A stretch of 38,383 nucleotides of DNA from a virus, in IMG/VR virus record IMGVR_UViG_3300050821_004109, positions 1-38,383 of that record. One strand, written 5' to 3'. Each line of letters opens with the position of its first letter. The first letter of the stretch is position 1. The notes under the pieces were generated by a model, which was not told where the DNA came from, did no database searches, and worked only from the letters and a program-made list of their open reading frames with translations. The translations under genes and the position numbers were made by a program. Shown here piece by piece: positions 2,421 through 18,195 of the stretch.

Positions 2421-3227
2421 ATGAACGCATCCCTGGTACTATCAGGGCTGGAATCCACTGCGATTACAGCCACCACCGAAGCCCGCGCCCGGCGCGATGA
2501 GCTTCTTGTCCTTGCCCGCAAAGGGAAGGCCGTCAACTCCCCCGAGAGCGCCACGCGGGCCGCGGCCCTGCTCACCGACTTGAAGGGCTTCACGCGCATG
2601 GTCGAAGCTGGGCGGTCCGACGTCAAAGCCCCAGTCCTGGACCTCGGCAAGCGCATCGACGGGCTGGCCCGCGAGCTCACCGCCGATCTGGAGGCCGAAG
2701 CTGGCCGCATCTCCCGGCTGCTGGGGGCCTACCAAGCGGAGGAAAACCGGAAGGCCGAGGAAGCCCGTCAGCGGGCCTACCAGGAGGAGCAGCGCATCCG
2801 GCGTGAGGCGGACGAAAAGGAGCGGCAGGCCAAGGAGGCCGCGGAGCGCGAGCAACGGGAGTTGGCCGCCAAGGCAGAACGCGCCCGCACGGAGGGCGGA
2901 CGGGCCAGGGCAGAAGCCGAGGCCCGTCTTGCCCAGGAACGAGCCGACCGCGAGGCCCAAGAACGGGCAGACCAAGAGCGGGCCGCCATCGTGGAAACGC
3001 GGGTGGCTGTGGCCGCGGCCACCCCTGCCAAGCCTGCCGGCGTGGCCACGCGCCCGGAGGTGTGCTACGAGGTGACGGATTTGACGGCCCTCTACGAGGC
3101 CGCCCCCTACCTTGTCACCCTCACGCCCAACGTGTCCGCCATCAAGGCGGCGCTCAAGGGCCTCACCGGGGAGCAGAAGTTGCCCGGGGTGAAGCACTGG
3201 ATCGAGCAACGTGCCATTGTCCGCTAA
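2421..3227 (+). CDS. Coiled-coil phage protein
   Basis: The protein has 268 residues. Residues about 15-105 form a helical N-terminal part, 110-200 a long highly charged Glu/Arg/Ala coiled coil, and 225-268 a compact C-terminal segment (VTDLTALYEAAPYLVTLTPN ... GVKHWIEQRAIVR). The combination of coiled coil and this ending is familiar from proteins next to SSB or recombination genes in many phages, whose role is undefined. A scaffold-like or DNA-metabolism accessory role is inference from position only. It starts 15 nt after the exonuclease stop and has no SD sequence (CATCCAACTT precedes the ATG). Confidence 0.78.
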   Translation: MNASLVLSGLESTAITATTEARARRDELLVLARKGKAVNSPESATRAAALLTDLKGFTRMVEAGRSDVKAPVLDLGKRIDGLARELTADLEAEAGRISRLLGAYQAEENRKAEEARQRAYQEEQRIRREADEKERQAKEAAEREQRELAAKAERARTEGGRARAEAEARLAQERADREAQERADQERAAIVETRVAVAAATPAKPAGVATRPEVCYEVTDLTALYEAAPYLVTLTPNVSAIKAALKGLTGEQKLPGVKHWIEQRAIVR

Positions 3228-3268
3228 CCTTTCAGTGCAACAACGCGCTGGGATAACCCAATAACGAC

Positions 3269-3577
3269 ATGACCAAAAAGAAGGACAAAACGCAGGAGAT
3301 GGGGCTGACGGGGCACGGGGTGGAGCCCATCCACATTCCGGCCATCGACAGCGCCATCGCCAAGTACGAGAAGAAGAAGGAAGCCCGCTGCAACGCCTCG
3401 CCAGGCGAGATTGCGGCCAAGGCCGACTTGAAGGAGCAGCTGTCGATCCACCGGGACAAGCTGCCCACCAACGAGGACGGCCAGCGGTTCTACCGCCACG
3501 ACGGGGTGGATTACATCCTGGATGAAGTCCTCAAGCGCCGCAGCGCCGATGACGGCGAAGTGCGGGGCGAGGAATAG
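3269..3577 (+). CDS. Hypothetical small charged protein
   Basis: The protein has 102 residues, is very hydrophilic and Lys/Glu/Asp-rich, and has no signal peptide or membrane segment. The N-terminus is Lys-rich (MTKKKDKTQ), the middle helical (IDSAIAKYEKKKEAR), and the C-terminal half has RFYRHDGVDYILDEVLKRR and an acidic end. I do not recognise a family. It sits between the coiled-coil gene (41 nt gap) and the regulator gene (50 nt gap), in the same direction, so it is probably part of the early operon. No SD precedes the ATG. Confidence 0.6.
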   Translation: MTKKKDKTQEMGLTGHGVEPIHIPAIDSAIAKYEKKKEARCNASPGEIAAKADLKEQLSIHRDKLPTNEDGQRFYRHDGVDYILDEVLKRRSADDGEVRGEE

Positions 3578-3592
3578 CGCAACCCAACCGCG

Positions 3593-3614
3593 TGGCCGGC
3601 GCGTAATCCGGCCA
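3593..3614. promoter_or_regulatory. Perfect dyad, possible operator for the HTH regulator
   Basis: TGGCCGG and CCGGCCA form a perfect 7-bp inverted repeat around an 8-bp centre, ending 13 bp before the start codon of the HTH gene. The spacing of half sites is compatible with a dimeric XRE-type regulator acting on its own leader. It could instead be an RNA hairpin. No clear -35/-10 pair was found nearby. Confidence 0.4.
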
Positions 3615-3627
3615 ACCCTTTCCAGCC

Positions 3628-3852
3628 ATGAAGATGCAAATAGATGTCAACCGCGATTTGGGCCAACTGATGAAGGCTATGCGAATCACAGCAGGTTTAA
3701 CCCAAGAGCAGATGGCCAAGGCTTTGGGAATGACTCGGGCCAATGTCCCCAATTTGGAATCTGGGCGCTATAACATCTACCTTCACCATCTGGTTAGGTG
3801 CGCCGACAAATGCGGGTTCGTTGCTCAACTGGTTGTGAAGAAAAAGCCATGA
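3628..3852 (+). CDS. XRE-type helix-turn-helix regulator
   Basis: The protein has 74 residues with an HTH_3/XRE-type fold over about residues 10-65. LTQEQMAKALGMTRANVPNLE gives the two core helices, with TRANVPNLESGRYN as the recognition segment, and the short C-terminus (FVAQLVVKKKP) may form a dimerising strand. Such proteins bind operator DNA as dimers and set phage transcription programmes or act as antitoxins. No toxin partner is adjacent. Its stop overlaps the next start (ATGA, 3849-3852), so it heads a chain of coupled genes and may control them through the dyad just upstream. The region is somewhat less GC-rich than its neighbours, a weak hint of separate origin. Confidence 0.85.
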   Translation: MKMQIDVNRDLGQLMKAMRITAGLTQEQMAKALGMTRANVPNLESGRYNIYLHHLVRCADKCGFVAQLVVKKKP

Positions 3853-4370
3853 GCGTGGACTTCAAAGAGCCGTTCGGGCGCTTCCTGCGCCTCTCCATCT
3901 CGGAGTGCCGGGCCAACCTGCGGGCTGAAACCAGAAACCCCACGGCGGATCTGAACGCCAAAATGCTGGAGGAGGAGATAGACCGTGCCCACGAGGCTTG
4001 GCACCGGGCCCGCAAGCCCAAGCGGAAGAAGCCCATCGCGGACGACGCGGCATGGATTGCGTCCCTCAAGGCCGATCCCGCGATGGCGGGCGTGGACGTA
4101 GACAAGGAAATTGCCAAGTGCCAGTTCTGGTGCCGCAACCAGGAGCCGCCCATCAAGGCCAGCCGCCGCCGCATCGTGAACTGGCTGAACAAGGCCGACC
4201 GCGTCCTGACAGCTCCGCCTCTCAAGCGGGACATGAACGCCGAGCCAGCCGGCTTCCGCGAGTGGTACATCCGCACCAGGATGGGCGGGGCCGACACGTA
4301 CAAGCCGTGGGCGCAGTTGTCATCCGACACGCAAAAGTATCTCCTCGATCAGATGAGCAAAGAGCCATGA
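3849..4370 (+). CDS. Hypothetical protein, replication-protein-like C-terminus
   Basis: The protein has 173 residues. The N-terminal half is helical and charged, with a basic patch (RARKPKRKKP, about 54-63). The middle (about 95-121, KCQFWCRNQEPPIKASRRRIVNWLNKADR) resembles the short helical segment at the end of many phage replication or DnaT-like proteins. A replication accessory role is inference, and the domain that would normally carry the enzymatic or winged-helix activity is not obvious. It starts on the stop of the regulator (ATGA) and its own stop overlaps the next start in the same way. Confidence 0.65.
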   Translation: MSVDFKEPFGRFLRLSISECRANLRAETRNPTADLNAKMLEEEIDRAHEAWHRARKPKRKKPIADDAAWIASLKADPAMAGVDVDKEIAKCQFWCRNQEPPIKASRRRIVNWLNKADRVLTAPPLKRDMNAEPAGFREWYIRTRMGGADTYKPWAQLSSDTQKYLLDQMSKEP

Positions 4371-4654
4371 GCCCCGCCAGCAAAGAGGTGCAGGTGGCCG
4401 TGGTCCGCCCCATCGCTGGGGAGCCCACCACGTTTGAGGTGGCCAGCAAGTCGGAGCCCGGCACGTGGCACAGGGTGGACATCAAAGCCCACGGCGGGTG
4501 CGGCCAGTGCGCCTGCATCAGGTGGGACACGGTTTCCTGGCCCCGGATCAGGGACACGCGCAATCTCCCGCCTTCGATGCGATGCCGCCACTTGAAAGCG
4601 GCCCGGGAGTATTACACCAATCACAAGATTGCCGCAGAGCGGGCATACGAATGA
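4367..4654 (+). CDS. SWIM-type zinc-finger miniprotein
   Basis: The protein has 95 residues. C48-x-C50 and C73-x-H75 give the spacing CxC-x(22)-CxH, the signature of SWIM zinc fingers, which bind DNA or protein partners. An extra Cys45 lies just before. The N-terminal 40 residues form a small beta-rich lead (VQVAVVRPIAGEPTTFEVAS ... GTWHRVDI), also usual before a SWIM finger. It stands alone, without the helicase or transposase domain SWIM fingers usually accompany. It is coupled by ATGA to the gene before and to the PP-loop enzyme after, so it may guide that enzyme to nucleic acid (inference). Confidence 0.65.
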   Translation: MSPASKEVQVAVVRPIAGEPTTFEVASKSEPGTWHRVDIKAHGGCGQCACIRWDTVSWPRIRDTRNLPPSMRCRHLKAAREYYTNHKIAAERAYE

Positions 4655-5532
4655 GACTGCTGCACCACGTCGGAATCAGTGGAGGGAAAGACAGCACCGC
4701 GTTGCTGCTGTGGGCAATCCATGAAAGCGGCATCCCACGAGAAAGCCTCCGCGTCACGTTCTGCGACACGGGCAACGAAGACCCGCTGACGTATGCTCAC
4801 TTGGATCTGCTCAAGCGCACCGTTATCGAGCCCGCTGGGATTATCAGCGGCTTCGTGACACTTCTGCCCGAGTTGGACTTCTTCGAGTTAGCCCTGAAAA
4901 AGAAGAGATTCCCCAGCCGGGTCGCGCAGTTCTGCACCACAGAACTCAAGATCAAGCCGACGAAGGAGTGGATGGCCCAGCAGTGGGCGCTGGGGCACGA
5001 ATTGGTGATCCTGAACGGGAAGCGCCTCGGGGAATCAGCCGAGCGCAAGCGGGCCATGAAGGACCAGCCAGCGCGTGGCTTTTCGGACTATTGGGGCTGC
5101 GAGGAGTGGATGCCGCTGCGCGATTGGTCCCTGGAGGACGTGTTTGCGATCCACCGGAAGTATGAAGTCCCGCTCAATCCCCTCTACGCAATGGGGGCGC
5201 ATCGAGTGGGCTGCTGGCCCTGCATCAACTGCGGCAAAATCGAGATTCGATTGGTGGCCAAGCACAGGCCGGAAAAGATCGAGGCTATTGCTGCTGTGGA
5301 AAAGCGGTTTGAGGACGAGCAGGGACGCATCTCCACTTTCTTTCATGGCAAGACTGCCACAAAACAGTACCGCACCAAATCCTACACGCGCAAGAAAGAC
5401 GGCACTAAATGGCCTGTCGCTCCGATCCACGAGATTGTGAAGTGGGCCCACACCACCAGAGGAGGCCGGCAAATGATCCTCCCTCTTGAGGAGTCCAAAG
5501 CCTGTTTTCTCAACTACACCGCCTGCGAATGA
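4651..5532 (+). CDS. PP-loop ATPase, PAPS-reductase-like
   Basis: The protein has 293 residues. The PP-loop SGGKDS lies at 10-15 and binds the pyrophosphate of ATP or PAPS. DTGNE (39-43), CTTELKIKP (95-103) and GKRLGESAERK (123-133) follow the order seen in PAPS-reductase-family proteins. A Cys trio at 188, 191 and 194 (CWPCINC) could hold a metal or Fe-S cluster. Phage members of this family are not shown to make sulfite; relatives such as DndC act in sulfur modification of DNA. A role in nucleobase or backbone modification is an inference supported by the DpdA-like gene two genes downstream. QueC is less likely because the CTTELKIKP motif is PAPS-type. The ATG overlaps the preceding stop. 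Confidence 0.85.
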   Translation: MRLLHHVGISGGKDSTALLLWAIHESGIPRESLRVTFCDTGNEDPLTYAHLDLLKRTVIEPAGIISGFVTLLPELDFFELALKKKRFPSRVAQFCTTELKIKPTKEWMAQQWALGHELVILNGKRLGESAERKRAMKDQPARGFSDYWGCEEWMPLRDWSLEDVFAIHRKYEVPLNPLYAMGAHRVGCWPCINCGKIEIRLVAKHRPEKIEAIAAVEKRFEDEQGRISTFFHGKTATKQYRTKSYTRKKDGTKWPVAPIHEIVKWAHTTRGGRQMILPLEESKACFLNYTACE

Positions 5533-5837
5533 AAACCGCCGTCCATCCCCACTCCCTCATCGCTTACTACGATCCCGCCCATGTGGAGGGCTTCAACGAG
5601 CGCGAGCGCCTGATTTTGGCAGCCCTCCACAAGATGGGCCAAGCCACCCACCGCCAACTCCAGCAGTTCCTTGAGATGCCCGAGCTGGGCAGCGTGCAGC
5701 CCCGGTGCTCCGACCTCATCCGCAAAGGTACGATCGAGGAATGCGGCAAGGTGCGCTGTGAGTTCACGGGCAGCACCGTCCGCCTGCTTCGCATCCGGGC
5801 CTGGCAGGATGAGCGGCAGATGGAGATTGCGCTGTGA
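5529..5837 (+). CDS. Small winged-helix-like protein
   Basis: The protein has 102 residues. Residues about 22-85 read as a winged helix: helix (NERERLILAALHKMG), turn (QATHRQLQQFLEMP), recognition-like helix (SVQPRCSDLIRKGTIEE) and a beta wing (VRCEFTGSTVRLLRIR). Phages often place such proteins beside HNH or modification genes, with unknown roles. It could be a regulator or a DNA-binding accessory of the neighbouring enzymes. It is coupled by ATGA upstream and GTGA downstream, which argues for co-translation with the PP-loop and DpdA-like proteins. Confidence 0.68.
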   Translation: MKTAVHPHSLIAYYDPAHVEGFNERERLILAALHKMGQATHRQLQQFLEMPELGSVQPRCSDLIRKGTIEECGKVRCEFTGSTVRLLRIRAWQDERQMEIAL

Positions 5838-6535
5838 TTGTAATGCCAGCCAATGCCTCCGGCTGGTTCTGGCACTGTCTGGCCCGGGAGACTGGTCGGA
5901 TCGGCCACCTTCATTCCCCTGGACACGAGCGAGGACCGTGGCCCTGGCTGCCCTACGCACTGGACAATGGATGCTTCCGGCTCTGGAACTCCGAGGCGAA
6001 CACCTTTGACGAGCAGGGATGGCTATCGACCGGGTTGTCCGACTGGCGCCGGCTGCTCTTTTGGTCCGCCGCCGCCCCTATAAAGCCGATGTGGGGCATC
6101 GTGCCCGACCGGCCAGGATGCTGGGAGGATACCGAGAAGAAATGGAGCATCTACGCTCCAGAACTCGCCGCGGAAGGAATCGCGCTTGCCGTCGCTGTCC
6201 AGGACGGTGCATCCCCGGCTCTTGTCAGGGCGCTATCGCCAGCGCCACATGTCATCGCCGTGGGAGGATCGACAGACTGGAAATGGAACACCGTGGAGAT
6301 GTGGCTTCGTGAGTTCCCTCGCGTGCATGTCCTCCGGTGTAATTCGCCTGCTCAGCTGCCACGACTCGAATCCCTAGGGGCGATGTCCTGCGATGGCACC
6401 GGCTGGAACCGCGGCGACCGTACCCAGACCCGGGGGTTGGAGGAGTGGGCGCATAGCAAATCTACTCCAGCCAATGTTCCTCTTTGGCCTCATGCCTCAA
6501 GGGCGAGGAATAGACGCCAAGCCAGTTTTGCATGA
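5834..6535 (+). CDS. DpdA/TGT-like (queuine transglycosylase-fold) protein
   Basis: The protein has 233 residues. The motifs LDNGCF (43-48), PDRPGCWEDT (91-100), VAVQDG (120-125), VGGSTDWK (143-150), VHVLRCN (164-170) and SCDGT (185-189) appear in the order I associate with phage DpdA-type relatives of tRNA-guanine transglycosylase. TGT and DpdA exchange a guanine base for a 7-deazaguanine; DpdA does so in DNA. No genes making preQ0 (FolE, QueD, QueE, QueC) are visible, so the base would have to come from the host or from outside the window. The start is GTG at 5834 in a GTGA overlap; an ATG at 5843 is the alternative. The family call rests on motif memory without a search. Confidence 0.72.
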   Translation: MIVMPANASGWFWHCLARETGRIGHLHSPGHERGPWPWLPYALDNGCFRLWNSEANTFDEQGWLSTGLSDWRRLLFWSAAAPIKPMWGIVPDRPGCWEDTEKKWSIYAPELAAEGIALAVAVQDGASPALVRALSPAPHVIAVGGSTDWKWNTVEMWLREFPRVHVLRCNSPAQLPRLESLGAMSCDGTGWNRGDRTQTRGLEEWAHSKSTPANVPLWPHASRARNRRQASFA

Positions 6536-7077
6536 AGTCTCCCCGATTCACACTCGCGGACATCAGCCGCAAGTCCCCAGCCATCCAGAAGCAGGTGCAG
6601 ACGGCATTGTATGGTGGCCAGCCCGTGCCGCAGCCTATCCAGCCGCCTCGATCTTCCCCGGCCTGCACCCCAGACACCCCCCAACCCCGTAAAACGAAAG
6701 GGAATGGCCGCCAGAGAGTGTCCAAGCATCGGAACGGGGGCATTTGGAGCGAAGCGAGGTACTGGCAGGCCATCCGCTCCGGCCTGCGCCGCACCTTCCG
6801 CTTCTGGAAGCCCGCCGTGGACGCCCTGCACGCTGCCCGAGTGCCAATGAAGGGGCCGCGGGGCCAGAAATGGGCCTACCTATGCTGCGACTGCCGCAAG
6901 CTGTTCAAGCGCCGGGCGGTGGAGATTGACCATGTCACGCCCTGCGGGGTGCTGACGGCCTTCGAGCACATCCCGGGCTTCATCCAGCGCCTGACGCCCG
7001 AGAGCCCGGAGGCCTTCAAAATTCGGTGCCTCAAGTGCCACCAGGCCAAGACGGCAGCCGAGCGTGAGGCCCGCTAG
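6532..7077 (+). CDS. HNH endonuclease-like protein
   Basis: The protein has 181 residues. After a Pro-rich N-terminal 60 residues, the C-terminal half holds a treble-clef HNH core: C118-x2-C121, EIDHV with His134 (131-135), then C166-x2-C169 followed by His170 (CLKCHQAKT). These nucleases cut double-stranded DNA and, in phages, serve packaging, homing or host-DNA attack. No intron or homing context is visible, so a role linked to the modification genes before it, or to packaging, is possible. The ATG overlaps the DpdA-like stop. Its TAG shares the palindrome CTAG with the stop of the opposing membrane-protein gene. Confidence 0.78.
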   Translation: MKSPRFTLADISRKSPAIQKQVQTALYGGQPVPQPIQPPRSSPACTPDTPQPRKTKGNGRQRVSKHRNGGIWSEARYWQAIRSGLRRTFRFWKPAVDALHAARVPMKGPRGQKWAYLCCDCRKLFKRRAVEIDHVTPCGVLTAFEHIPGFIQRLTPESPEAFKIRCLKCHQAKTAAEREAR

Positions 7078-7313
7078 GAGTGAATCAGGACCAGCGGCTG
7101 CCCGCCGAAGGCCCCTAGGCAGTCCAGCAGGACCAGGATGGCGATGACGCCCACGATCACGCGGGCCACCAAGTTCATCGGTGCGGGGAGTCCCATCTGC
7201 CCGATCACCCAGAACAGGAGCCAGATGACCAGGGCAATGACCAGCAGGGTGACGAGCAGATTGACCAAGTTGCCGCCAAGGACAACCGCAGCGAAGGGAA
7301 GGAGGAGGTGCAT
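7074..7313 (-). CDS. Small two-TM membrane protein (holin candidate)
   Basis: The protein has 79 residues with two strongly hydrophobic helices, about 2-38 (one long or kinked segment with VTLLVIALVIWLLFWVIG) and 47-66 (NLVARVIVGVIAILVLLDCL), joined by a short Gly/Pro-rich turn. The pattern resembles the Thivi_2564 family of small membrane proteins often carried by phages. It closes the envelope-directed block, next to other membrane proteins and a lipase, so a holin-like role is possible but not shown. The ATG at 7313 is used because the longer frame would need a TTG at 7340. No SD is present. Confidence 0.65.
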   Translation of the reverse strand: MHLLLPFAAVVLGGNLVNLLVTLLVIALVIWLLFWVIGQMGLPAPMNLVARVIVGVIAILVLLDCLGAFGGQPLVLIHS

Positions 7314-7350
7314 CCCGTCACGGACAGCCCTGGCCCCCAAGGGTGCCCGG

Positions 7351-7779
7351 CTACTTCACCGCGTCCTGCTTTGCCTCGAGCCTGACGGTGCGGCGGTCGA
7401 TGGAGTTCACTGTGGCCACCAAGCTCACCTGCCCCAACTTCACTTGCTCAAGATCGGCAGCAAAAGCGGCCTGATTCTTGAGCGATACGTCCAGCTTTTC
7501 CAACATGCTGGTGAAATCCCCGTTCTGCTTCGCATTATCGGCCAGGGCCAGCTCGGCGGCCTTGTTGGCGGTGGTCACGGCATCATCGGCTGACTTCTGG
7601 ATAGCCAGCACCACCGGGGCGCTGGAGATGAAGTCGTTGCCTGCCGCTTTGAGGTGGAAAACGGCGAAGGTGCAGATGAACCCCAGGATCGTGATGGCCC
7701 CTCGGAATACCATCGTGCCCAGGTCACTGTTGATATGACGCAGCAGACTGAGAAATCCTCTGGCGGCTCTTGGGCTCAT
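7351..7779 (-). CDS. Single-TM protein with helical stalk
   Basis: The protein has 142 residues. Residues about 20-45 form one membrane helix (GTMVFRGAITILGFICTFAVF), followed by a long helical, probably coiled-coil region to the end (KSADDAVTTANKAAELALAD ... NSIDRRTVRLEAKQD). An N-terminal anchor with a stalk facing the periplasm resembles i-spanin topology, and the next gene but one encodes a lipoprotein, the usual partner type. This is topology-based inference. Its ATG overlaps the stop of the lipase-like gene (ATGA, 7776-7779). Confidence 0.62.
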   Translation of the reverse strand: MSPRAARGFLSLLRHINSDLGTMVFRGAITILGFICTFAVFHLKAAGNDFISSAPVVLAIQKSADDAVTTANKAAELALADNAKQNGDFTSMLEKLDVSLKNQAAFAADLEQVKLGQVSLVATVNSIDRRTVRLEAKQDAVK

Positions 7780-8501
7780 AAGGCGAACTCCGGGCGGATG
7801 GGGTGCGTGGGGTCGATGAGATGCCAGTAGGTGTCAAGCGAGTGCCACGCCTCCCAGCTGCTTTGGACAACCCCCGAGGGGTCCAGTTCATTGGCCGGGC
7901 CGGCGTGCAGGAACTGGAAGAGCGGCCACACCCAGAACGGCACCTTGGGAACGCCGTCCGGGTCCACCACCCAGCGCACCAGGTCGGGGATGGCCTGCAC
8001 GGCGTAGTCGGCAAAGGCGCGGTCGCCCACTTTCGGGCCGGCAAAGGAGATGAGGCTGGCCTTCCAGAAGGCGGCAAGGAGCAGGGCCCACGCGGCCCCC
8101 AGGCTGTGCCCCGTCACCAGCTGCACGGTTGGGAAGGCGGGTCCGTTCAGCAGGCGGAAGGTCTGGAAGGTGGAGGTGAAGCCGCGTTCCGTCTTTGCCC
8201 CAGGGACGAAGGGGCAGGCGTCCAAGATCACCTGCGCGTCCACTTTCCATTCGTTCGGGCCGTTGGCGATGACGCGGGTGCCCCGGATAGCCGCCACCAA
8301 TTCCTCCGTCTCCAAGTCCTCCACCAAGATGCCGATGGGCACGCCCTTGAATCCGAGTTCATCAGCCAGGATGACATCCCGCAGGCGGTAGCCGTAGGGC
8401 GTCGGGTCGATGGCCTGGTAGGCTGGGGCCGTGTCCTCTGCGCCGTAGCACAGCGAGATGAGGCCAGCGCAGCGGGCGGACTTGGTGTGCAGGTCGATCA
8501 C
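7776..8501 (-). CDS. Class 3 lipase-like alpha/beta hydrolase
   Basis: The protein has 241 residues. The nucleophile elbow GHSLG lies at 131-135 (Ser133). AIRGT (71-75) matches the oxyanion-region strand of Lipase_3 proteins, SFAGPKVGD (152-160) matches their conserved GAPRVG stretch, and Asp180 or Asp182 (VVDPDGVPKVP) with His227 complete a plausible triad. The family hydrolyses acyl esters of lipids. There is no signal peptide, so release would need a holin or lysis. In this block of membrane and exported proteins the likely target is the host envelope, for lysis or outer-membrane disruption; this is inference. The start is GTG in a GTGA overlap with the lipoprotein gene. Confidence 0.83.
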   Translation of the reverse strand: MIDLHTKSARCAGLISLCYGAEDTAPAYQAIDPTPYGYRLRDVILADELGFKGVPIGILVEDLETEELVAAIRGTRVIANGPNEWKVDAQVILDACPFVPGAKTERGFTSTFQTFRLLNGPAFPTVQLVTGHSLGAAWALLLAAFWKASLISFAGPKVGDRAFADYAVQAIPDLVRWVVDPDGVPKVPFWVWPLFQFLHAGPANELDPSGVVQSSWEAWHSLDTYWHLIDPTHPIRPEFAL

Positions 8502-8962
8502 GGGGCCAAGGCGTGCTGGCCCTTATAGAATTGGACCGCGTTCCCGATCCCAGTGGCCACGTTGGCGAAGGCGGCGAACACCTGCGCCTGCTGGGCGGTG
8601 ACGATGCCCCCTGAGAGCGAGCCTTGGTTGTTGGCCACCAGGGCAATGAAAGAATCAATCTGGCTGGCCTTGGCCTGGTCGCTGATGAGCGTGGCCTTCA
8701 CGGCGGCCAGCTCGGCCTGGAGGGCCCCGATGTTGTAGGTGGACACCTTCCCGAGCGGGATCTGGGGCAGCTCGGCCTCGAGGTCGGTCATGGCCTTCAC
8801 CACCGCAGCCTGGTCGGCGGGCGTGGCCGCCTTGTTCAGGGCCGCGGTGGCGTACACGTTGCCGGATTCGGCCCCGGCCAGGCCGATGGCCTGCTGGGGG
8901 GTGAGCTGGCAGCCGACGAAGGCCAGAGCCAGGAGGGCGGTGAGAAGGAGGGATTTATTCAT
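8498..8962 (-). CDS. Predicted lipoprotein
   Basis: The protein has 154 residues. The N-terminus is a lipoprotein signal: MNKS, a hydrophobic core (LLLTALLALAFVG) and Cys18. The mature part is Ala/Gln-rich and mainly helical, with no enzymatic motif. Lipoproteins in phage lysis blocks often act as outer-membrane spanin subunits, and the single-TM protein at 7351-7779 could be the inner-membrane partner. At 137 mature residues it is longer than many o-spanins, so a different envelope role is possible. The lipobox (FVGC) is acceptable though not ideal. The gene overlaps its upstream neighbour by 8 nt. Confidence 0.72.
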   Translation of the reverse strand: MNKSLLLTALLALAFVGCQLTPQQAIGLAGAESGNVYATAALNKAATPADQAAVVKAMTDLEAELPQIPLGKVSTYNIGALQAELAAVKATLISDQAKASQIDSFIALVANNQGSLSGGIVTAQQAQVFAAFANVATGIGNAVQFYKGQHALAP

Positions 8963-14268: not shown

Positions 14269-14371
14269 CGTCGGCCTCCCCGCCTTCCGCCTCTTCCCCT
14301 GTCGGCACCAGGCAGCCGTGCCGGGAAACGTCCTCCTCCTGCTCTTCAAATATTTCCTCGGGGCAGTCCAT
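14261..14371 (-). CDS. Acidic 36-residue peptide
   Basis: This is a short frame with strong positional support. Its ATG (14371-14369) overlaps the TGA of the large internal virion gene as ATGA, and its own stop overlaps the ATP-grasp start by 8 nt, matching the coupling used throughout this operon. The peptide is extremely acidic: 14 Glu or Asp residues, runs such as EEIFEEQEED and the end GEADDE, and two Cys. It could be a real small protein, a translational bridge that carries ribosomes to the ATP-grasp start, or a protein substrate for that ligase. All three readings are inference. Confidence 0.5.
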   Translation of the reverse strand: MDCPEEIFEEQEEDVSRHGCLVPTGEEAEGGEADDE

Positions 14372-17300
14372 CAGCGATAGGTTGTTGCCGGCTTCCGCTT
14401 GGGCAAGGTTTCGCGGAGCACCGGAATTCCCTTCTCCAGGTTCTCCTTCAAGCCCGTGGTCTTTCTTGGCGTGGAATACTCGGTGGGGCTGAACGGCGTT
14501 TTCTTGTCCATCTGCGCCGCCAGCCATTGCAGGGCTCCGGGCTCGATCCAGTTGAACTTGTCGGCAAAGAACTCGGGATAGTCGCCCTTCTGCAAATCGG
14601 TGATGTTTTTGGCCGCGTCCAATTCCTCCCGGGCGAACGGCACGTTGTCCAGGAGGCCCATTGAGGCGGCCACCATGCCAGCCGTCAGGCCCTTCTTTTG
14701 GGCATCGGACTTCCTGAAATAGGAGTCGGAGGCCCGGCGCACTGTCGCCCCCCACTGGAGCGCCTGGAACACGGGGCTGTCGAAGGCCTGGCGTGGCACC
14801 TCCACGCCGTTGATCTTCGCGGTGCCCTCCAGCACGTCGCCCGGCTTACGCCTCTCGCCCGGCTGGTAGAAGCCGCCGATGTGTTTCGCCCCAAAGAAGC
14901 CCAGCAGGGCGAAAGCACCCCCGAGGAAGCCTTTCTTCATCAGGCGCATCACGAGGTCGGCTTCCTCGGGCTTTATTTTCTCGATGCCACGGGCATAGAC
15001 AGCAGCCACCCGCGCCGGCCCTTGGACAGCCCCTGTCAAATACTCGAACGATTCCGCCAAGACATTCATCGGCACCTTCACCACCGGCAGCTTCGTCTTG
15101 AGGAACGTGGCCGCAGCCTCCGACAGAATAGAGGGACGCCCTGTGGTCTTGCTCTTCGCCTCGAGCGCGGCCAACTGCTGCTGGTAGCGCTTCACGAAAA
15201 CATTGTCCTGCTGGAAGGTGGCCCGCTTGGCGTATTTCCACGCATCGTTCATCAGGCGCATTTGCACCAAGGGATCGTGCACGTCCGCCCCGTGCCGGGC
15301 CGCGTTCTCGATCCCCAGTTGCAGCCGGCGGGCGAAGTCGTTGATGACGGTGGGGTATTTCATCGCCCCGTGCATCTGGCCGAAGTATTCGAGGACGCCA
15401 TGTGGGAGGTGGGCCTTGTCGAACAGCACCTGCTCGGCGGTGTCCTTGTTCCGCAGCATGTCCCACGCGCCTTTCATGCCCTGCGTGAGCCCTTGAGTGA
15501 TGGCCTTTGACTCGGCCCGGACAGCCCCGGCAATCGTCGGCACCCCTTCCATGGCCGCCTTGTCGGCCAGCTTCGGAAAAGCCTTTGAAATCCCGTAGCC
15601 AATGGCCTGCTCTGCCGGGGTGGAGATCCAGCGCGTGGCAGCCGCGGCGGCCAGCTTGATGAACACCGTGGGGTAGGAGAGGACGCTGGCGCGGGCATAG
15701 CCGGAAATGGCGTCCTGCACCTTCCGGCTCGTGGTGCGGTTCTGCTCCTCAAGCTCCATTTCAGCCCGGTCCGCCTCCCGCTTGATGCGCTCATACTCCA
15801 AATTCAGCCGCTCGGCCTCGGGGTCCAGTTTCAGGGCAGTTCGGCTGGCCTTCTCAGTCCCAGCCATGCGCGACACCTGCGCTTCCGAAATCTGGCCTTC
15901 GCGCCGCGTCTTGTATGCCTGCAACCGCTGGGCCTGGCTGCGGGCCTCGATCGCTTCCCGGAAGATGTCTTGGAGGTGGGGGCGGATGGCCTCTCCCAGT
16001 TCGTTCACCATCGCCACGGACCAGTCCTTGAATTTGGTGACGCCCTTGGCTAGGTAGTCGGCTCCGATGATGGCGTGGTCGGCCAGGTCGGCAGGGTCCA
16101 AGCCGGACATGAGGCGTCCTTCCGCCATGCGGGCCTTCACGCGGGCCCGGGCCTCCTCCGCACGGTCGGAGATGAATTTGAGCACCTTCCCAGGCGGCTT
16201 GCCGCGGCGCGGGGCCTCCTTCAAGGGTTCGGCTGCCTGGAGGCGCTTTGCCTCTCGGTAATTCTCGATCATCCGCTGGGCTCCAGTGAGACGCCGGTTC
16301 AATTCACGGATTTGCTCCACCACCACGGGCGGCAGCTCCCGGCCTTTGTTGGCGACGGTCAGGCGGCGCGTCATGCCGGCCAGGGAATAGTCCCGCGCCA
16401 GCATCACCTTTCGGAAGGCGAGGGATTGGCCGCTCTTCGTGCCCACGGAGTCCGCAATTTCAGCCACGCGCTGAAAAGCGTCCTGCGCCCGAGCCTTTCG
16501 CATGCGAGCGTCAGCCGCCGCCACCCCATTGTTGGCGCTCTCGGCCTCCAGGAGGTCGTCTTCCGCCTTTTCCACGGCCCGGGCCTGCCGGTTGGCCTCG
16601 AATCCCAGCAGGACGTCCTCTTCGGGCGTGGGGGCCCGCGGGTTGGCCCTCAGATCCTCCACCAGGGCCTCTCCAATGGTCGGGTCGGCCTTGAAGCGGG
16701 CCGCGACATCGGCGTGCACCGCCTTGAACGTCATGGCCTCCTCTTTCGTGGGCTCAGGTTTGCCCATCCGGGCCAATTCCGCGTTCATGGCATCGTTTTT
16801 GATGCCGATGGCGTCCGGCGCAGGAGCCGGTTCCTTGGATTTTACAGCGCCAGCCTCTGGAGCTTCCTCAGGAGCGGTCCCGGCTGCTGCCGATGCGCCC
16901 TGCTGGCCTTCGCGTGGCACGTCCGGCACCACCTTTGCCCCGACCTCGCCGGGTTCTCCCGGCACTTGCTGCACAGCTTCATCAATTGTTCCACGTGGTG
17001 TTGCTGAGTCGTCTGGATTTGAGGGTGAACCACTTGCGGATTCCTTAACCGCATCTTTTGCCTTCTGAGAAGCGATGTTGTCAAGCTCACGGGCCGCATC
17101 CATGAGGAAATCGGCGTGTCGCGGAACATCCGTCTCCACAGCCTCCCTCCGAAGCACCTGCGCTGCCTGAGTGGGGGTTTTTCCCTCCATTTCCTTGACC
17201 ACAGCAGCGCCTTTCTCCTTCGGAAATAGCTCCAGCGCCATGCCGAGGGTGCCCAACAGGGCCGCCCCGCTCTGGGCCACAGGGCTGGCCACAGCAGTCA

Positions 17301-18195
17301 CCTTGTCCTCGAACGTGGCATTGGGGTCTTTCAGCACCGCAGGGGCTTTGATGCCCGCTTTCACCGCCCCGTAGCCCATCAGGCCGGTGAATACCGCCTC
17401 CATGCCGACCAGGGCCTTGGCGGCCAGTGGGTAGGTGGCAGACGCTGCCTTGAGCGGGCCCGCGGCGGCCATCGTAGCCACGCCCAGCGGGCTTTCTGCG
17501 CCCTCCAGTAGGGGCCGGAGGGCGTTGTACACCCCTCCGACCAGGGCGGGGTTGCTGAGGCCAAACTGGGGGATGTCGGGCAAATCTTTCGGGGCCTCCG
17601 GCAGCGCCGCCAGCGGCTTGTTGATCGACTCCCAAAATCCGGTGATGGCCTTCTTGGTCTGGAACAGGTCGCTACCCATCTGGTGCTGCCATGTCCACGC
17701 CTTGAGCTGTCCCTGGTCCACACTGGTTTCGCTGTCCTCCTTCTGCTTCTTGGCGGTGAGGCTGAAAAGCTTCGTGTCGGTCATGCCGGGGTCATCCACC
17801 CCGTACATTTCCTTGGCGATTGTTTGCCGGATGGCGGGCCAATTACGTTCCAGCGTGGCGTGGTTCACGCCGTCCAGCTTGGTGGAGTAGTACGCCTGGT
17901 TGATGGCTTGGGCCCGGGCGTCCATCGCATTGTCCGAGACAGCATCCAGCCGCGTGAAGGCGGCCTTCTCCTCCGGCATGAGGCGCGTGTTCAGTGTCTC
18001 GAGGGTGCCGGCGTACAGCGCATCGAACCGCCCGCCGATCTTGGGCGATGAGTCCACCTCCGGGGTCTTGGCCTCCGGCACGTGCGCCTGGCCCTGGCCG
18101 TCCGCGAACGGATCGAATGCCTCCGGGTCGGCGCTCTTCGGCTTCTCCAGCACCTCCACAGCGCCGCCGTCCTTGAATGGATCGAATTCGGCCAT
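14371..18195 (-). CDS. Large internal virion / ejection protein
   Basis: The protein has 1274 residues, the longest in the window, in the position of T7 gp16. The N-terminus carries FDPFKDG and FDPFADG, a repeated short motif. Several hydrophobic segments suit membrane insertion during DNA ejection: about 225-290 (PLGVATMAAAGPL, VFTGLMGYGAVKAG), about 300-330, about 840-860 (VFIKLAAAAA) and about 1110-1125 (GGAFALLGFFGAKHIGG). Between them are Ala/Glu-rich helices and a coiled coil (LEYERIKREADRAEMELEEQ). No lytic transglycosylase motif is seen, unlike T7 gp16. An internal virion or large polyvalent-type protein is inferred from position, size and composition. Coupled by ATGA at 18195. Confidence 0.72.
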   Translation of the reverse strand: MAEFDPFKDGGAVEVLEKPKSADPEAFDPFADGQGQAHVPEAKTPEVDSSPKIGGRFDALYAGTLETLNTRLMPEEKAAFTRLDAVSDNAMDARAQAINQAYYSTKLDGVNHATLERNWPAIRQTIAKEMYGVDDPGMTDTKLFSLTAKKQKEDSETSVDQGQLKAWTWQHQMGSDLFQTKKAITGFWESINKPLAALPEAPKDLPDIPQFGLSNPALVGGVYNALRPLLEGAESPLGVATMAAAGPLKAASATYPLAAKALVGMEAVFTGLMGYGAVKAGIKAPAVLKDPNATFEDKVTAVASPVAQSGAALLGTLGMALELFPKEKGAAVVKEMEGKTPTQAAQVLRREAVETDVPRHADFLMDAARELDNIASQKAKDAVKESASGSPSNPDDSATPRGTIDEAVQQVPGEPGEVGAKVVPDVPREGQQGASAAAGTAPEEAPEAGAVKSKEPAPAPDAIGIKNDAMNAELARMGKPEPTKEEAMTFKAVHADVAARFKADPTIGEALVEDLRANPRAPTPEEDVLLGFEANRQARAVEKAEDDLLEAESANNGVAAADARMRKARAQDAFQRVAEIADSVGTKSGQSLAFRKVMLARDYSLAGMTRRLTVANKGRELPPVVVEQIRELNRRLTGAQRMIENYREAKRLQAAEPLKEAPRRGKPPGKVLKFISDRAEEARARVKARMAEGRLMSGLDPADLADHAIIGADYLAKGVTKFKDWSVAMVNELGEAIRPHLQDIFREAIEARSQAQRLQAYKTRREGQISEAQVSRMAGTEKASRTALKLDPEAERLNLEYERIKREADRAEMELEEQNRTTSRKVQDAISGYARASVLSYPTVFIKLAAAAATRWISTPAEQAIGYGISKAFPKLADKAAMEGVPTIAGAVRAESKAITQGLTQGMKGAWDMLRNKDTAEQVLFDKAHLPHGVLEYFGQMHGAMKYPTVINDFARRLQLGIENAARHGADVHDPLVQMRLMNDAWKYAKRATFQQDNVFVKRYQQQLAALEAKSKTTGRPSILSEAAATFLKTKLPVVKVPMNVLAESFEYLTGAVQGPARVAAVYARGIEKIKPEEADLVMRLMKKGFLGGAFALLGFFGAKHIGGFYQPGERRKPGDVLEGTAKINGVEVPRQAFDSPVFQALQWGATVRRASDSYFRKSDAQKKGLTAGMVAASMGLLDNVPFAREELDAAKNITDLQKGDYPEFFADKFNWIEPGALQWLAAQMDKKTPFSPTEYSTPRKTTGLKENLEKGIPVLRETLPKRKPATTYR

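Follow-up and report, generated by a model that had tools for sequence, protein, structure and literature searches.

The viral contig IMGVR_UViG_3300050821_004109 (38,383 bases; the whole record was analysed and is hereafter called the window) carries a chain of overlapping genes, five of which are designated A to E (Table 1). The best reading of gene D is that it belongs to a small, hardly described family of DpdA-like proteins (phrog_15826), and its fold, motifs and gene neighbourhood confirm it as a minimal member of the tRNA-guanine transglycosylase (TGT)/DpdA superfamily. We consider it reasonably probable that D is a compact 7-deazaguanine transglycosylase that modifies phage DNA against restriction using a base fed by the host, and that gene B, which encodes a PP-loop enzyme related to SspD and DndC, has a possible sulfur role. 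Phage DpdA inserts preQ0 and protects DNA (PMC6884629); by analogy, D is probably an anti-restriction enzyme, with insertion of 7-deazaguanine into DNA as its predicted activity.

Fold, motifs and family of gene D

The sole profile match of the D protein is phrog_15826 (8e-13), which carries the PHROGs label "unknown function". Searches of Pfam, NCBIfam and PADLOC returned no matches for D, and its profile gave only chance matches among PDB sequences; three distant relatives match DUF6610 weakly (2e-4). The template-free AlphaFold model of D has a mean pLDDT of 93, and a Foldseek comparison with the PDB ranks tRNA-guanine transglycosylases first (E 1e-4). Superposition on TGT gives a Z score of 13.3 with 203 aligned residues, which span residues 1–211 of the 233 in the model. 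D thus shares the TIM barrel of bacterial TGT and ends with it. Bacterial TGT is approximately 130–150 residues longer and has a zinc domain; D has no CxCxxC, so that the C-terminal CxCxxC...H zinc site of canonical TGT is absent.

Relatives of D were gathered from viral contigs and aligned, yielding a set of 67 sequences that includes distant isolates. Eleven residues are invariant in all 67: D44, N45, G46, P91, D92, Q123, G144, G145, K150, N170 and D187. In TGT chemistry, one aspartate acts as the nucleophile and others serve in acid/base catalysis and base recognition. The catalytic aspartates of D and TGT are likely equivalent; the first of these roles would then belong to D187, and the others would fall to D44 and D92. 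A direct alignment to bacterial TGT pairs D187 with the aspartate of FDCVLPTR, but because this alignment is not significant (E 0.42), we infer the mapping of the aspartates rather than read it from the alignment.

Phage DpdA (phrog_887; Hutinet 2019) and the D family have their TGT-superfamily motifs in the same order. Profile alignment of D with the annotated 7-deazaguanosine inserting enzyme (DpdA) of Seuratvirus phiG7 (E 6e-4, hhalign probability 28%) places four motifs in register, namely yALDNGaF/fLDSGAF, PDxxGD/LDgiGD, VGG/IGG and SCDgtgW/SCDsssW. Members of the D family also share with phage DpdA a neighbourhood of preQ0 synthesis or transporter genes. The two differ in size (306 amino acids in phiG7 DpdA, 233 in D) and in PHROG assignment, D matching phrog_15826 only and phiG7 DpdA falling in phrog_887; their similarity is confined to the profile level, and both can coexist in one phage, as in phiG7 and Sonali. 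Proteins labelled "DpdA-like tRNA-guanine transglycosylase" in SEA-PHAGES genomes (Aoka gp40, Sonali gp81 and Mangethe gp54) belong to the D family, with D-profile matches of 3e-30 to 1e-32, and Aoka gp40 is itself assigned to phrog_15826. These actinophages differ from the window in having a PF02592 gene, another PP-loop gene, or a separate DpdA and QueC nearby, and none has the A–E gene order.

Several other members of the family were encountered. In phiG7 (L015, positions 4663–5309), the D homologue is split into two overlapping frames, between genes annotated as DNA polymerase beta subunit and DNA polymerase, and an intact, separate DpdA is also present; the D family can therefore decay. 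Vibrio phage R29Z has an intact version of 194 amino acids at the equivalent position. The D homologue of Erythrobacter phage ZS04 (L336, positions 2890–3531) is annotated as "DarB-like antirestriction protein" and matches the D family over 447 bp, so that the label is apparently a misnomer. In halovirus HVTV-1, which contains dPreQ1 without a DpdA, no D homologue was found in bases 1–100,000.

Gene neighbourhoods and the supply of 7-deazaguanine

The neighbourhood of D relatives is the strongest evidence for this reading of D. Of 88 D loci, 33 have QueD no more than 5 kb from D, usually as the next or next-but-one gene; none of 178 control loci around relatives of B, E or the portal protein has it so placed. 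The D loci are not independent of one another; when they are clustered at 90% identity, 15 of 44 D clusters have QueD, and at 70% identity 6 of 23 do. Three loci in which D is approximately 48% identical to that of the window (L043, L045 and L047) have the order D, queC, queD, queE, folE2, followed by a relative of gene E. A Verrucomicrobiales contig (L215) has a D that is 60% identical to that of the window and stands beside it in the D tree; its queC and D genes share a 4-nucleotide overlap. In actinophages, a PF02592 gene is found beside or near D (ReqiPine5 gp04, Mangethe gp53 and Aoka gp38), and locus L044 likewise has one adjoining or close to D. PF02592 corresponds to COG1738, which is required for preQ0 transport in E. 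coli (PMC5372724). The presence of synthesis or PF02592 genes beside D relatives ties the D family to the supply of 7-deazaguanine, by synthesis or by uptake. DNA methyltransferases and recombination genes are also among the neighbours.

Phages with DpdA only form a group in the survey of Hutinet et al. (PMC6884629). The window groups with these phages, which would depend on their hosts for the base: since no recognisable queC, queD or transporter gene is present in the record, D would need a base made by the host. Among five bacterial genomes that contain D relatives, QueC is found in all five and TGT in four. In one of them, a Verrucomicrobiales metagenome-assembled genome (G049; L215, positions 7363–8696), the sole QueC found is the phage-like one that overlaps D, and TGT is present in the genome. 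A further arrangement occurs in L050 (positions 3325–5354), where D, queD, queE and folE are linked; this 8.6-kb record yielded no QueC, so that the inserted base might be 7-carboxy-7-deazaguanine instead of preQ0.

The PP-loop enzyme encoded by gene B

The B protein matches PF01507 (8.7e-15) and phrog_424 (1.2e-43), and its best matches in the defence library are SspD (3.7e-20), BrxP (2.4e-15) and DndC (2.2e-10). The structures nearest to its model (pLDDT 91.6) are PAPS/APS reductases, with Z scores of about 15. Like the SspD, DndC and BrxP proteins of DNA phosphorothioation, B has an intact PP-loop (SGGKDS, with S10, G12, K13, D14 and S15 invariant) and conserved cysteines, C95, C188 and C191 being invariant in all 49 relatives. 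Its sequence marks B as an ATP-using PP-loop enzyme whose relatives are DNA-sulfur enzymes, those of phosphorothioation being the nearest.

Alignment with an APS reductase puts C188xxC191 opposite the CxxC of that enzyme, and among the PF01507 proteins of the five bacterial genomes there was no CC...CxxC homologue with which to place the third cysteine. By analogy with TtuA, NcsA and LarE, the three cysteines of B may hold a [4Fe-4S] cluster with one position left open, an arrangement that would suit sulfur transfer. SspD has ATP pyrophosphatase activity and associates with a cysteine desulfurase (PMC7188994).

Two other assignments were considered for B. Assimilatory PAPS reductase (CysH) was rejected because the PP-loop of B is intact, compared with the degenerate SSSFG loop of CysH, and because B is without the ECGxH-type end present in the CysH of L316. 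QueC, the PP-loop enzyme located beside or near D in L043 and its kin, L215 and L051, was rejected as well: B is a PAPS-reductase-type protein, and no PF06508 match exists anywhere in the record.

In SspD and DndC systems, the PP-loop protein is accompanied by SspA/B/C or DndA/D/E partners. A PADLOC scan of 15 window proteins detected none of these, in a record that may not be complete, and phosphorothioation was for that reason not adopted as the full explanation. C5 methyltransferases were found in 19 of 80 B loci and 20 of 88 D loci; the 98 control loci around E and portal relatives had none. In L153 (positions 5939–8512), a B-family PP-loop gene is followed by a helicase-like protein of 858 amino acids whose C-terminal part is an N6/N4 DNA methylase (PF01555), and proteins that cluster with this protein adjoin B in 11 of 66 B loci.

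Association of D with B and conservation of the gene set

D and a PAPS-reductase-like PP-loop gene lie no more than about three genes apart in six lineages: the window, L018, L075, Aoka, ReqiPine5 (where they are adjacent) and R6L. Strong phrog_424 matches occur in four of 50 D records, the window being one of the four, and in none of 50 control records, an enrichment that is suggestive only. Searches in the other direction found no D in 80 B loci or in 80 E loci, and a whole-record check of the B, E and portal records gave only two weak partial matches to D. It is thus plausible that B is a DNA-modification gene whose placement beside D is occasional rather than constant.

A first-pass annotation had described genes A to E as a DNA-modification module comprising, among others, a DpdA-like base-exchange enzyme and an ATP-using sulfur-type PP-loop enzyme. 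The identification of D is backed by its TGT fold, DpdA-collinear motifs and the neighbourhood of its relatives, and that of B by PF01507, the SspD, BrxP and DndC matches and the intact PP-loop motif. The part of the module that stands is therefore a DpdA-like D beside a sulfur-type PP-loop B. The five genes do not hold up as a conserved system: a search for the A–E order through relatives of B, D, E, A and the portal found it nowhere else. The sole recurrence of A, B and E together (L135) is without D, and in L221 A and E are adjacent.

Weighing the interpretations

On the favoured reading of D as a DNA-modifying transglycosylase, D most likely forms a covalent intermediate at Asp187 as it takes guanine out of phage DNA, and replaces it with a 7-deazaguanine base (preQ0 or a relative) drawn from the queuosine pathway of the host; DNA so modified would resist host restriction enzymes. 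B could use ATP to adenylate a substrate and could sulfurate either the DNA or the base through a three-cysteine iron-sulfur site, with a cysteine desulfurase of the host as the sulfur source. Accessory roles in contacting DNA are probable for A and C, and E may have no part in the pathway. Several observations weigh against this reading. The link from D to DpdA by sequence is weak, resting on a single-sequence template at the hhalign probability given above; only 12 columns aligned with DpdA2 of Vibrio phage nt-1 (E 0.32), the alignment to bacterial TGT was not significant, and D is without the TGT zinc site. The PP-loop gene of L075 (positions 2076–2941) is a clean single-gene insertion after D that is absent from closely related phages, the same slot being empty in L079 and occupied by QueD in the related L084; this recent insertion indicates that D does not require a PP-loop partner. 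A search of the whole window record for QueC, QueD and PF02592 gave no match, and the supply of base by the host is something we infer. Among phages with a lone DpdA, Orion had no modification and 7-11 only traces (PMC6884629).

The most serious competing interpretation, which we regard as a substantial possibility, is that D and B are independent accessories that happen to lie side by side. D would then exchange bases by itself using host preQ0, and B would serve a different function, for instance DNA sulfuration or processing, in partnership with A and E or with DNA methyltransferases. The lack of D in all 80 B loci, the grouping of A, B and E without D in L135, the single-gene insertion in L075 and the occurrence of C5 methyltransferases near B as well as near D are all consistent with independence, whereas the close spacing of D and PAPS-like PP-loop genes in six lineages and the excess of phrog_424 in D records argue against it. 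At the opposite extreme, D and B could form a two-step pair in which the inserted 7-deazaguanine, or the DNA phosphate, receives sulfur from B through an open-site iron-sulfur cluster at C95/C188/C191, creating an unreported sulfur-bearing mark. Such a pair would also be expected in ReqiPine5, R6L, Aoka, L018 and L075. We hold this version to be unlikely.

Other substrates for D were also weighed. Modification of host or phage tRNA, which would alter translation during infection, would suit a fold that is that of tRNA-guanine transglycosylases; we consider it improbable given that D is missing the zinc-binding C-terminal part of TGT, that hosts already carry TGT (four of the five bacterial genomes above) and that phage homologues of DpdA modify DNA (PMC6884629). 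A protein target, with D and B as a phage counterpart of the Cap9/Cap10 pair, is more doubtful still. In type IV CBASS, a PP-loop enzyme (Cap9) and a TGT-like enzyme (Cap10) act around 7-deazaguanine (PMC11996544), and deazaguanylation, which involves a base–protein conjugate, is documented (PMC11996544; PMC13329287); Cap10 (9ntn) appears at rank 34 among the fold matches of D, and Cap9 (9nto) among the weak sequence matches of B. TGT proper, however, outranks Cap10, and Cap9 is QueC-like, unlike B, with PF06508 unmatched in the window. The target of the CBASS enzymes is a CD-NTase protein; no such partner, nor any other CBASS component, was found among the 15 window proteins scanned, and relatives of D have DNA methyltransferases and recombination genes in their vicinity. 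We give just as little credence to the idea that D is a decoy or a TGT-like protein that has lost its catalytic activity: the split homologue of phiG7 beside an intact DpdA would fit such a fate, but the three aspartates and the glycine motifs are invariant across 67 divergent sequences.

The gene chain and other features of the window

All five open reading frames A to E are present with the 4-nucleotide overlaps that the first-pass annotation had reported, the junctions being ATGA, ATGA, GTGA and ATGA. The chain of overlaps begins two genes before A, at position 3628, and comprises seven genes in all (Table 1). Exact 4-nucleotide overlaps also occur at six of 22 junctions among the called minus-strand genes of the window. 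Since such overlaps are ordinary in this genome and the chain starts upstream of A, the span from A to E bounds no natural module; the overlaps indicate co-transcription in the genome's own style.

Table 1. Genes of the overlapping chain in the window, with the evidence for each.
Gene	Position	Strand	Evidence and remarks
Xre/Cro-type helix-turn-helix protein	3628..3852	+	HTH_31 4.6e-11; opens the overlap chain; outside the A–E span
173-amino-acid protein, no assigned function	3849..4370	+	second gene of the chain; no Pfam match; PHROG match 0.28 at best; 4-nucleotide overlaps on both sides
A, 95 amino acids, SWIM-like CxC...CxH pattern	4367..4654	+	pattern residues kept in L135 relative; no family match
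B, PP-loop ATP pyrophosphatase, PAPS-reductase/DndC/SspD superfamily	4651..5532	+	PF01507, phrog_424, model
C, 102 amino acids, possible winged-helix DNA-binding protein	5529..5837	+	phrog_1123 5.8e-8; winged helix from sequence only
D, minimal TGT/DpdA-like base-exchange enzyme, 233 amino acids	5834..6535	+	phrog_15826 8e-13, model, conserved motifs, neighbours of relatives
E, HNH endonuclease	6532..7077	+	phrog_1985 1.1e-17; invariant metal/catalytic residues

The proposed SWIM finger of A is borne out in part: the CxC...CxH residues (C48, C50, C73 and H75) are conserved in the L135 relative, but no library in the profile searches names A as a member of any family. The single match of C is to phrog_1123, a family of unknown function, and its possible winged helix is suggested by sequence. 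As had been proposed, E is an HNH nuclease, one of a type widespread among phages, with C118, C121, D133, H134, C166, C169 and H170 (CxxC/DH/CxxCH) invariant among relatives in addition to its phrog_1985 match; the further suggestion that it spares modified DNA found no support in the analysis.

Two features lie outside the chain. The very start of the record (positions 1–424) is a tandem array of approximately 35 copies of the 12-bp unit GCGACCAGGTCA, with 89% matches. A 1274-amino-acid protein encoded on the minus strand (positions 14371–18195) has a weak DarB-like antirestriction match (phrog_10089, 1e-10) and is a possible second anti-restriction gene of the phage.

Significance

Because GenBank already labels some members of the family "DpdA-like", the kind of enzyme that D represents is known; its minimal size, exchange of partners and SspD-like pairing make it a variant. 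The analysis gives phrog_15826 a likely function, that of a very small TGT-type enzyme whose neighbours are variously genes for preQ0 synthesis, genes for preQ0 uptake and PP-loop genes of the PAPS type. Its repeated occurrence with SspD/DndC-like enzymes prompts the testable question of whether phages combine 7-deazaguanine with sulfur, and isolates with the D and PP-loop pair exist (ReqiPine5, R6L and Aoka) in which the chemistry can be measured. Should D prove active on DNA, it would represent a DNA base-exchange enzyme reduced to one compact domain, of use both as a tool and for flagging hidden DNA modification in phages that have not been cultured.

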